From positions 1 to 22,342 of the IMG/VR virus record IMGVR_UViG_3300044616_000654: 22,342 nt of DNA, one strand, 5' to 3'. The position numbers and the translations under genes are program-made. Below are positions 1 through 3,220 of this stretch, piece after piece. The notes under the pieces are model-generated. The model worked only from the letters and a program-made list of their open reading frames with translations. It did no database searches and had not been told where the DNA came from. The DNA is from a virus. Every line of letters starts with the position of its first letter. Positions within the stretch are counted from its first letter, which is position 1.

Positions 1-2
1 AT

Positions 3-101
3 AATTTGTATAAAACATCATTCTATTTGATTGATGAACAATGTCATCCAATGTTGTTCGAACTCGAACTGGAAAATCCAGAAATGTTACCTGCTGATTA
101 A
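3..101 (+). CDS. 3' end of an unrecognised gene (partial)
   Basis: An open frame enters from the left edge and runs for 32 codons to a TAA at 99-101. The visible C-terminus ends in an acidic, Leu/Met-rich stretch (MLFELELENPEMLPAD). No domain can be recognised in so short a piece. Its position directly upstream of a late structural cluster makes a virion or baseplate gene plausible, but that is only context. The frame was chosen because its residue mix looks protein-like and it is open from the edge. An unrelated small gene or a chance frame cannot be excluded. Confidence 0.5.
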   Translation, partial: NLYKTSFYLIDEQCHPMLFELELENPEMLPAD

Positions 102-214
102 TTCGCCCTATAAGCATTAAATTGATGCGCGACCTTTGTAACGTCGAGAACTCGGGGAGGTACCGGGATGGGGCTTAACTAAATAATGATACCTGGATGT
201 CTGCAAACTTCAGG

Positions 215-237
215 AAGAGGGTGAAAATCCCTCTTTT
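215..237 (+). terminator. Possible intrinsic terminator
   Basis: AAGAGGG (215-221) pairs with CCCTCTT (229-235) across a 7-base loop and is followed by two further T residues. The stem is 7 bp with three G-C pairs and the T tract is short, so termination is likely but not strong. It would end transcripts coming from the upstream gene, just before the late promoter at 242. Confidence 0.5.
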
Positions 238-241
238 ATCA

Positions 242-249
242 TATAAATA
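242..249 (+). promoter_or_regulatory. Late promoter (TATAAATA)
   Basis: This is an exact match to the T4 late promoter consensus octamer TATAAATA. It lies 26 bases before the mini-ORF at 276 and would drive that ORF and the Mom-like gene. The expected transcription start falls within the right arm of the inverted repeat at 254-266. Confidence 0.75.
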
Positions 250-275
250 CCTATGCAGACATCTAGAGTAGAACT

Positions 276-356
276 ATGCCTAACTGGACGGAAGAAGGTT
301 TCCAGCGTATTAATGATGTTGCAAATACTGTAGAATTTTTGTTGAATGAAAAGTGA
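276..356 (+). CDS. 26-aa mini-ORF overlapping the Mom-like gene
   Basis: This ATG-to-TGA frame of 26 codons (starting MPNWTEEGFQRIND) begins 26 bases after the late promoter octamer. It ends inside the next gene, in the shared sequence ATGAAAAGTGA at 346-356. The peptide is acidic to neutral, looks helical, and has no Cys or recognisable domain. No clear Shine-Dalgarno precedes it, nor does one precede the downstream ATG at 346, so the 11-base overlap could couple their translation. In phage Mu the translational activator com also overlaps mom, but this peptide has no Com-like zinc-finger cysteines, so only the layout is comparable. It could instead be a non-functional leader. Confidence 0.45.
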   Translation: MPNWTEEGFQRINDVANTVEFLLNEK

Positions 357-939
357 TTATCACATTGACAGAATCAATAAGTCCGAAACCGCAGAATTAC
401 TTCTGCGGTTTCATTATTTGAAAGATCTGTCAAAAGGTTTCAAAGTAGGATATAATTACGGTCTATACAAGAATAATGATTTCTGTTTTATGAACATTGG
501 TGGTGCTTGTGGAGTTTGTATCTTCACTGGATTACCTGTTCCAGAAATCGCAAAAGGTGCATTTGGATTAGAAAGAAATGAACAACAAGGGCTCTTCGAA
601 CTCTCAAGACTTTGCATTCACCCTGATACGCAGTCACGCGAATATAACATCACTTCTTGGTTTGTGTCACGAGCGATTAGACAACTTCGGAAAGATACTG
701 AAGTTAAAGCAATCATTTCTTATGCTGATTCAGATTACCATACTGGTACAATTTATCGGGCTTGCAACTTTAAATATGCAGGTCTCACAGATCCTAAAAA
801 AGACTTCTACTTTGCAGACGGAACTAAACACTCTCGTGGAAGAGTCAAAGGTGCGGAAGGGGAGTGGAAAGACAGAAGTCGTAAACACAGATATGTGATG
901 GTGTTTGATAAAAGTTTGAAGCTGTTATGGGATAAATAA
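346..939 (+). CDS. Mom-like DNA adenine modification protein (GNAT-type acyltransferase)
   Basis: The 197-aa product resembles phage Mu Mom, which converts adenine in DNA to a methylcarbamoyl form and so protects phage DNA from many restriction enzymes. Matching features are HYLKDLSKGFK at 23-33, the ELSRL motif at 85-89, SYAD at 125-128, and HTGTIYRACNF at 132-142 followed by YAGLT. Mu Mom, as I remember it, has the same order: ELSRL, then YAD, then GTIYQATNF and GLT. The basic C-terminus (KHSRGRVKG and RSRKHR) could bind DNA. The length is close to that of the Mu protein. The gene follows a late promoter and overlaps a mini-ORF, and its stop codon overlaps the next late promoter. The protein belongs to the wider N-acetyltransferase fold, so a different acyl substrate is possible. 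Late expression would suit modification of DNA about to be packaged. Confidence 0.75.
   Translation: MKSDYHIDRINKSETAELLLRFHYLKDLSKGFKVGYNYGLYKNNDFCFMNIGGACGVCIFTGLPVPEIAKGAFGLERNEQQGLFELSRLCIHPDTQSREYNITSWFVSRAIRQLRKDTEVKAIISYADSDYHTGTIYRACNFKYAGLTDPKKDFYFADGTKHSRGRVKGAEGEWKDRSRKHRYVMVFDKSLKLLWDK
931..938 (+). promoter_or_regulatory. Late promoter (GATAAATA)
   Basis: The core ATAAATA overlaps the last codons and stop of the Mom-like gene and lies 17 bases before the ATG of the first fibre gene. It is one of eight such octamers placed in front of genes in this window. Confidence 0.65.
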
Positions 940-955
940 CTAAAAAAAGACTATA

Positions 956-3220
956 ATGGCACTTACTAAAATCACTGGTGACGTTATTGCAACAAACACT
1001 AGCATTACCGCAGTTGGCGCTACGTTTACTGGTAATGTTTCGATCGCTGGGACAATTAGCTACGAAGATGTCACCAACGTAGACTCGGTTGGTCTGATTA
1101 CTGCAAGAAGTGGAATTAATATTACTAGTGGTGGATTGATTGTTACTGGAGTAAGCACGGTTTCTGCAGGTAGTACTAGTGCTCCATCAATCAGCCCAAG
1201 TGGAGATACGAACACCGGCATCTTCTTCCCATCGGCTGATACGATCGCTTTTGGAGAAGGTGGTTCGGAAGTATTAAGGATTGATTCATCTGGTCGTCTC
1301 TTAGTTGGCACATCTACAGCGCGTAGTAATTTCTTTGGCACAACTCTTAGTTCTTTAACTCAAACAGAAGGAACAGGTGGTTCTACTGCACGGGGTGCTT
1401 TAAGCGTAATTAATAATGATGTAAGCAATAACCCTGCTTACGTTCTTCTTGGAAGATCAGGTGCAGCAACACTTGGTTCAAATGCTGCGGTTGTCAGTGG
1501 AAGCCGCCTTGGAACTTTAACTTTTCACGGTGCAGATGGTACTAGTTTTATCGAAGCGGCAACTGTTGCCGGTGAAGTAGATGGGACGCCTGGCACCAGT
1601 GACATGCCGGGCAGGCTTGTTTTTTCTACGACCTCAGATAATGCTGGCTCGCCCACCGAGCGGATGCGCCTGGACTCCAGTGGCGGATTCCAGTTTAAGG
1701 GCGCAGGTACTGCAGGTGTCACCCAAGCCGTCAGCTTCAACGGCAGCGCACCTGTTAATAGCCTCGTTATTGACTCGTCGGGGCGGGTAGGTCTGGGGAC
1801 TAGTAGCCCTGGGGCATTGTTGCATTTATCAGCAACTGCAGGCAACCAAGAACTTCGGCTGAGTGATACTACTAACACCGCGATGGGACGAATGTATGTC
1901 GCTAACGGTACTTACCTTATTTCAGAAACCGCTCATCCGATTGTTTTCCAGACTAATGCCACCAATCGCATGACGATTGATTCAAGTGGCAATGTCAACA
2001 TTGATAGCAATACACTCTACGTTGATGCCACCAATAACAGAGTAGGGATTGGCGCTACGACGGTTGGCGATTTACTTCACCTCAGGGCTGCGACTACACC
2101 CCATCTGCGTATTGACCACACTACAACCAGTTCGTTTGGAGCGGTTCAATTTTATGAAGATACAACCCAGCAGGCATCCATTGGCGCACTGGGTTCTACC
2201 AGCAGTGGAACAGGCGGTGGCAATGCACTGCAGATTTGGAATTTCCTAAACGCGCCAACTGTATTTGCTACAAACAATCAAGAACGCGCCCGCATCGACA
2301 GCTCGGGACGCTTGTTAGTTGGCACGTCTTCTAGCCGTGCCATTTATGGCATTTCATCCGCAATCCAAATAGAAGGTACTGGTTTTGACACAAGTTCCTT
2401 AAGTCTAATCTGCAACAACAATGGTTCTCAAAGTGCATACCTTGCGCTGGGAAGAACAAGAGGCACGTCTGTTGGTAGCACAACAACGATTGCAAACGGT
2501 GACATTCTTGGTGCTGTTTCATTTACGGGTGCACATAACTCTGGGCTTACAGGCGCCTCTGCTTCTATTACTGGGTACGTAGACGGCACCCCCGGCGCTA
2601 ACGACATCCCAGGCCGCCTAGAGTTCTCCACTACCGCCGATGGAGCGAGCAGCCCGACGGAGCGGATGAGGATTGATCAAAACGGCCATATCAAAACTTA
2701 CAGCACGGGTAACGGGCATACGGTAAACGTTTCTGCCGGCGGTGGAACTAGCACTTTTATTTATGCTGGCAACAGATCGTCAACTGATGTTCAAGGAAGC
2801 GGTGGCACAACGGTTTACTATGTTTACTCAAACGGAAACGTTCAAAATACAAACGGCAGTTACACCACACTTTCTGATGCCAAATTAAAAGAAAACATTG
2901 TTGACGCCCACTCGCAGTGGAATGATCTGAAAGCAATCCAAATTCGTAACTGGAACTTTAAGAACGAGACCGGTTACGAAACACATCGTCAAATTGGACC
3001 CGTTGCACAGGAGTTGGAGCAAGTATGCCCTGGTCTTGTCTTTGAGACACAGGACCGTGATGCAGATGGTAACGAGACCGGAGAAGTCACCAAGGGTGTT
3101 AATCAATCCGTTCTTTATATGAAGGCTGTCAAGGCGTTACAAGAAGCAATGGAACGCATCGAGCAACTGGAAGCAAGCAACGCTGATCTGCTGGCCAGAG
3201 TAACAGCTCTTGAGTCATAA
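956..3220 (+). CDS. Tail fibre with C-terminal S74 intramolecular chaperone domain
   Basis: This 754-aa structural protein is probably a trimeric receptor-binding fibre. The N-terminal part carries the shared shaft module TFTGNVSIAGT...EDVTNVDSVGLITARSG (about residues 24-53), then GDTNTGIFFPSADTIAF and SSGRLLVGTS. The middle has two copies of the VDGTPG...PGRL module (DNA about 1579-1677 and 2580-2673) plus VGLGTSSPGA and VGIGAT repeats typical of beta-structured shafts. The C-terminus from Ser640 (SDAKLKENI) is a peptidase S74 chaperone domain, with Ser640 and Lys645 at the five-residue spacing of the endosialidase Ser-Lys dyad. Self-cleavage before Ser640 would release about 115 aa. A coiled coil (about 720-754) ends the protein. 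The middle uses more GC-rich codons than the N-terminus, suggesting mosaic origin. The late promoter lies at 931. Confidence 0.88.
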   Translation: MALTKITGDVIATNTSITAVGATFTGNVSIAGTISYEDVTNVDSVGLITARSGINITSGGLIVTGVSTVSAGSTSAPSISPSGDTNTGIFFPSADTIAFGEGGSEVLRIDSSGRLLVGTSTARSNFFGTTLSSLTQTEGTGGSTARGALSVINNDVSNNPAYVLLGRSGAATLGSNAAVVSGSRLGTLTFHGADGTSFIEAATVAGEVDGTPGTSDMPGRLVFSTTSDNAGSPTERMRLDSSGGFQFKGAGTAGVTQAVSFNGSAPVNSLVIDSSGRVGLGTSSPGALLHLSATAGNQELRLSDTTNTAMGRMYVANGTYLISETAHPIVFQTNATNRMTIDSSGNVNIDSNTLYVDATNNRVGIGATTVGDLLHLRAATTPHLRIDHTTTSSFGAVQFYEDTTQQASIGALGSTSSGTGGGNALQIWNFLNAPTVFATNNQERARIDSSGRLLVGTSSSRAIYGISSAIQIEGTGFDTSSLSLICNNNGSQSAYLALGRTRGTSVGSTTTIANGDILGAVSFTGAHNSGLTGASASITGYVDGTPGANDIPGRLEFSTTADGASSPTERMRIDQNGHIKTYSTGNGHTVNVSAGGGTSTFIYAGNRSSTDVQGSGGTTVYYVYSNGNVQNTNGSYTTLSDAKLKENIVDAHSQWNDLKAIQIRNWNFKNETGYETHRQIGPVAQELEQVCPGLVFETQDRDADGNETGEVTKGVNQSVLYMKAVKALQEAMERIEQLEASNADLLARVTALES

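Follow-up and report, generated by a model that had tools for sequence, protein, structure and literature searches.

The mom gene and its neighbourhood

The window, by which we mean the whole stretch of DNA analysed, is a virus record of 22,342 bases (IMG/VR IMGVR_UViG_3300044616_000654). On the best reading of its sequence, the source virus is Kyanoviridae-like, that is, a T4-like virus of the kind infecting cyanobacteria. The window helicase and the phrog_2818 relatives lead to Synechococcus myoviruses, and gp32 in the relatives that carry mom shares 65-79% identity with that of cyanophages. The features discussed below are as follows, with the evidence for each in brackets.

105..174, + strand: tRNA-Thr(TGT)-like cloverleaf whose D- and T-loops lack their usual sequences (fold; a true tRNA-Thr(tgt) stands there in relatives)
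193..205, + strand: 5' arm of the leader stem, extending to 190 (inverted repeat; covarying pairs in HNH relatives)
213..237, + strand: inner terminator-like hairpin, GAAGAGGG..CCCTCTTTT (fold; helix 2 of the covariation test)
242..249, + strand: late-promoter motif of T4 type, TATAAATA, lying in the leader-stem loop (motif; ATAAATA equidistant in ten HNH relatives)
254..266, + strand: 3' arm of the leader stem (inverted repeat, fold, covariation)
276..356, + strand: 26-codon chimeric leader frame overlapping mom by 11 nt (HNH start plus phrog_2818 end; contig L379)
308..312, + strand: deletion junction, in frame, with at most 2 shared bases (comparison of the window, L378 and L001)
346..939, + strand: mom-family gene, 197 aa (Pfam PF25680, phrog_1384, profile against 8bv8, S104)
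385..412, + strand: perfect 12-bp hairpin in mom codons 14-23, with a U-rich tail to codon 24 (fold, synonymous diversity, double changes)
933..938, + strand: TAAATA motif, 23 nt before the next fibre gene at 956 (motif scan)

Mom is a broad anti-restriction enzyme whose prototype, from phage Mu, transfers a methylcarbamoyl group to adenine and so blocks host restriction; in Mu its expression is tightly restrained. A sequence-only reading of the window had proposed a Mom-like protein at 346-939, and sequence profiles bear this out, placing the gene firmly in the Mom family. Its product matches Pfam Mom PF25680 (E 3.3e-24, 86.1 bits against a curated cut-off of 27.1) and PHROG 1384, 'Mom-like DNA modification protein' (E 5.8e-34), and a profile built from 13 relatives, with Mu left out, found a single protein in the PDB, the Mu Mom structure 8bv8 (E 5.4e-25). 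In 8bv8 the serine S124 is mutated; it aligns with S104 of the window protein, which is invariant in 14 sequences. The counterpart of Mu D149 is invariant too; the HY, ELxR, SxAD and NF positions of the Mu methylcarbamoylase are conserved as well. Unlike Mu Mom, to which it is 23% identical in the alignment, the window protein has no N-terminal extension, and its gene lies in a different operon with no Com. The Mom-like proteins of Listeria A511, Lactobacillus LP65, Corynebacterium and Proteus phages (phrog_1384) belong to the same family at about 30-34% identity but differ in hosts and gene neighbours.

A predicted model of the window protein is GNAT-like over residues 1-145 at low confidence (pLDDT 55), and in structure comparison this low-confidence model reaches Z 10.8 with 8bv8, tied with other GNATs. 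The possibility that the protein aligns better to another acetyltransferase family is disfavoured by the sequence profile, which finds only Mom in the PDB; the fold model leaves Mom level with other GNATs. The protein might instead be no DNA modifier, but a GNAT of another kind or a Mom that has lost its activity, given that its activity is putative and many GNATs fit the fold equally well. We consider this very improbable in view of the Mom-only profile result, the invariant S124 and D149 counterparts and the conservation of the protein over 205 distinct genes. A Mom-family adenine-modifying enzyme remains the best reading of the sequence, and within a family that is already known, the window gene is an ordinary member.

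IMG/VR holds more than 599 relatives of the window mom. Annotated phage records contain no Mom with at least 60% identity to it, and their best match is that of Roseobacter phage CRP-212 (52%). The idea that this Mom subgroup has its home in prokaryotes was rejected, as the prokaryote genome collection searched for one yielded no member. In most relatives mom stands directly behind gene 32, so the position beside the fibre genes, pointed out in the earlier reading, is not typical. Two side observations concern fusions. In CRP-212 (L162:3001-3924) one open frame joins Mom to a MazG domain, and because the annotated MazG gene begins within mom, mom is hidden in the annotation. In addition, the window protein weakly matches C-terminal parts of phrog_559 and phrog_3339 proteins, whose annotation is HNH or homing endonuclease, which suggests Mom-endonuclease fusions elsewhere.

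The 26-codon frame and its leader

The short frame preceding mom encodes MPNWTEEGFQRINDVANTVEFLLNEK, a peptide with no cysteine. As had been described, it has 26 codons and shares 11 bases (346-356) with mom, and the sequence upstream of the mom start (GAATTTTTGTTGA-ATG) contains nothing like a Shine-Dalgarno site, so that mom has no ribosome site of its own. Comparison with related contigs resolves the frame into two parts. Its codons 1-12 (36 bases, 276-311) are the start of an HNH endonuclease gene (L378:1891-1926), and its codons 13-26 are the last 14 codons (41-54) of phrog_2818 (L001:2847-3011), a small gene found in 79 cyanophage records. L001 and L002 carry the same mom DNA as the window; in L001 the 54-aa gene before mom is phrog_2818 (E 5.9e-26) and likewise overlaps mom by 11 bases. 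From 309 onward the window is identical to the L001/L002 locus, whereas 16-311 match L378 instead, where an intact 203-aa HNH gene starts at the sequence of window 276-311 (MPNWTEEGFQRI-VDAGKK..). The full order in L378 is an 89-aa ORF, the tRNA-like element, HNH, a 64-aa ORF, phrog_2818 and mom; relative to it, the window has lost, in frame, about 0.9 kb that separate HNH codon 12 from phrog_2818 codon 41. A lone assembly error is unlikely because L379, a second contig, carries the identical fusion (100% over 1000 bases), and although chance could yield a bare 26-codon frame, the HNH and phrog_2818 origins show that this one did not arise so. Judged from these alignments, the frame is firmly identified as a deletion scar.

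This origin bears on the suggestion of a com-mom-like layout. Mu Com is a zinc-finger protein of the CCCC type that binds a hairpin close to the structure by which translation of the mom mRNA is inhibited (PMC6483171). If the small frame likewise encoded an activator opening the mom mRNA, its position and overlap would recall Mu, where com (35768-35956) overlaps mom (35877-36602), but the frame has zero cysteines and gave no match to Com in a Pfam search whose positive control, Mu Com, matched PF10122. Moreover, it joins the beginning of an HNH gene to the end of phrog_2818; phrog_2818, being so widespread among cyanophages, is no dedicated mom partner; and the genes before mom in relatives vary (gp32, HNH, small membrane ORFs, phrog_2818) with none in common. 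We regard such an activator as having next to no likelihood, and the proposed layout does not survive as a counterpart of com-mom. The accompanying remarks fared better: the peptide indeed lacks zinc-finger cysteines, and this favours control by coupling, which would take the place of an RNA-binding activator. Even without Com, mRNA structure and coupling may restrain mom here too; the control of the window mom may be alike in outcome to that of Mu, and it is not a member of the Mu system.

The leader in front of the scar is firmly the HNH gene's own at the level of its anatomy, as read from the alignments: a conserved long stem whose loop holds a late-promoter motif and a terminator hairpin. 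Ten full-length HNH relatives share one order, namely a tRNA-Thr(TGT) or look-alike, TAAATA at about -96, the 5' arm, the terminator hairpin, ATAAATA at -32, the 3' arm, AGAGTAGAA and ATG, with the ribosome site lying in the 3' arm of the stem. In the window, positions 268-270 pair with 190-192 across the weak ribosome site, extending the stem, and TATAAATA lies just over 30 nt upstream of the ATG at 276. The arms covary: in 8 aligned sequences (L387, which has a further arm sequence, was left out of the count) 99% of cells are paired, with 11 double-change cells against 3.9 in shuffled alignments, and slid controls are 43-58% paired. The read-through leader is predicted to fold at -36.9 kcal/mol (z -3.6) and the late leader at -8.2 (z 0.4). 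Between these two transcripts there is only a modest difference in how open the ribosome site is predicted to be, since weak local pairs can form in the late leader.

Late expression of mom, also proposed earlier, has a basis at the level of a motif inside a covarying stem, and as a motif only. Taken by itself TATAAATA is not significant (2 in the window against 0.49 expected; 13 of 100 shuffles reach 2). The shorter TAAATA occurs 32 nt before ATG 276 too, with a modest overall enrichment (17 found, 11 expected). Similar late-promoter-like TAAATA motifs, at 933, 3248, 8306, 11565, 14982 and 17001, stand 23-35 nt before six fibre starts.

The closest parallels are the leaders of T4 I-TevI, T4 segB and Aeh1 mobE, in which the ribosome site is concealed in read-through mRNA made early but free in late mRNA (PMC2988022, PMC3014915). 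The window leader resembles them in having a stem that covers the ribosome site and is conserved by covariation, and a late promoter, here a motif only, set so that the late mRNA would lose the 5' arm; like that of segB, it adjoins a tRNA gene, or in the window a tRNA-like element. It differs from all three in its extra terminator in the loop and in that the endonuclease, intact in L378, is gone save for 12 codons, so that the leader now precedes mom. The tRNA-like cloverleaf has a D-loop without GG and a T-loop with GGAGGTA in place of TTC. It is conserved in three contigs, the window, L380 and L381 (about 1030-1100), and a change in L381 improves the acceptor stem. ARAGORN, run with intron options, found no tRNA in 105-174, and an Rfam search of window 1-1000 returned chance-level matches only, all under gathering scores.

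The hairpin within mom and the gene 32 terminator

Codons 14-24 of mom form a predicted hairpin (fold z -7.6 in the window) that is under very strong synonymous constraint. It is found in 137 of 205 non-redundant mom genes, 96 of which have the identical 28 bases. Synonymous diversity over the hairpin is 0.042 of expected, compared with a gene mean of 0.644 and 0.457 for the next lowest window elsewhere; none of 20,000 permutations reached the observed value, and the same codons in terminator-type relatives stand at 0.838. Three pairs are kept by double changes, one of them via E-to-D plus F-to-Y in the protein. Two other sources of the low diversity were rejected: search-pattern bias, as none of the peptides used to gather the mom relatives spans codons 14-24, and a selective sweep or module transfer, which the far greater variation at codons 8-13 and 25-30 of these same sequences speaks against. 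Separately, terminator-type relatives have a second low stretch at mom codons 103-112, at about 0.22 of expected.

The hairpin and an intergenic gene 32 terminator are complementary in their distribution across the sequences compared. When gene 32 lies at most 600 bases away with no intergenic terminator, 127 of 128 mom genes carry the hairpin; when a terminator abuts the mom ATG in gene-32-side relatives, none of 47 does (both counts are our tally of locus rows). L269 has the hairpin despite a standard terminator. On a tree of codons 41-190 the hairpin/terminator state switches at least 9 times on supported branches, and among independent pairs terminator and hairpin change the same way in 0 cases and in opposite ways in about 5 (reaching only p 0.03-0.125). 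The 5' end of mom, where codons 1-25 join the upstream sequence, is of two types. These swap at least 9 times when set against the remainder of the gene, much as though this end and its upstream junction were exchanged as one unit.

From this distribution we infer that the mom hairpin is a gene 32 terminator embedded in mom. Mom-less cyanophages offer a comparison, since a terminator-like hairpin ends gene 32 in 3 of 6 inspected (P-SSM2, S-SRM01 and S-SCSM1). The hairpin-type relatives resemble them in having an intrinsic terminator-like hairpin 3' of gene 32, but differ in that it lies inside the next gene. The element could instead be a protein-binding site or a stabiliser of the gene 32 mRNA 3' end: its loop, TTAC, is almost invariant, conserved beyond the need of a plain terminator, and its U-tract (UUUCAUUAU), the U-rich tail behind a stable stem, is weak. 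Such a role deserves consideration as a minority possibility, set against the absence of the hairpin where a standard terminator is present (L269 excepted) and the constraint on the U-rich tail codons 23-24, CAT TAT (0.16 and 0.04, versus 0.92 and 0.76 in hairpin-less relatives).

The region upstream of mom varies in other respects. Terminator-type loci (L066, L071, L079 and others) have a sigma-70-like promoter 85 nt upstream of mom (TTGnnn, 15-19 nt, TATAAT; TATAAT in 45 of 52), and since it lies directly before the ATG-abutting terminator, the transcript would begin with the terminator hairpin. Other loci have hydrophobic ORFs between gp32 and mom whose starts and stops overlap, either tiny (22 aa, e.g. 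MNYNQICLTLLVVAAYINLLFK; L010, L041, L114 and others) or of about 50 aa (..LWIIGMYYIKLxMDRKFGR; L026, L034, L076).

A proposed control of mom by RNA elements

In the mechanism that we propose, the hairpin would have arisen as a gene 32 terminator set within the opening part of mom, which would leave mom with only read-through or ribosome-protected transcripts, and the window mom would have taken the hairpin along when it moved. The deletion would then have put mom behind the leader, and hence the on-switch, of a selfish HNH endonuclease. Read-through early mRNA would fold the long stem and hide the ribosome site of the scar, while late transcripts starting near 255, without the 5' arm, would allow the scar to be translated. 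Ribosomes stopping at 356 would restart at 346, reaching mom by coupling. Ribosomes are known to suppress intrinsic terminators (PMC5021804), so coupled translation from the upstream gene could prevent the terminator hairpin and let mom through.

Alternatively, leader and scar may be inert, mom being made at a low level by a weak start of its own or by general read-through, with the overlap as a relic. Many relatives have mom starts that overlap the upstream stop (by 4 or 11 nt), partly because the start reads xTG-AAR, and the fusion is known from just two copies, identical to each other; but the fusion is in frame, with its 11-nt overlap kept, behind an intact conserved leader, and we think inertness unlikely. 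A switch acting on mom, coupling and the terminator role are each inferred, and the combined reading, in which a Mom-family gene, a scar, an HNH leader acting as a late switch with coupling and an embedded gene 32 terminator come together, seems to us reasonably probable. Its broader form is offered more tentatively, at slightly less than an even chance: that RNA elements, and no Com, control mom in the uncultured T4-like viruses of cyanobacteria. These elements would be a gene 32 terminator in codons 14-24, restricting mom to transcripts that are read-through or covered by ribosomes, together, in the window lineage, with a late switch of a homing endonuclease captured by deletion. The Mom family is known; the arrangement and control of the window mom are what is new.

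On this proposal, hundreds of uncultured viruses bear a Mom, mostly behind the replication gene 32, that would be controlled without Com. A stretch that is both coding and a terminator-like hairpin would be a clean case of one DNA with two roles, and the scar would illustrate how the switch of a selfish endonuclease can pass to a useful gene next to it.
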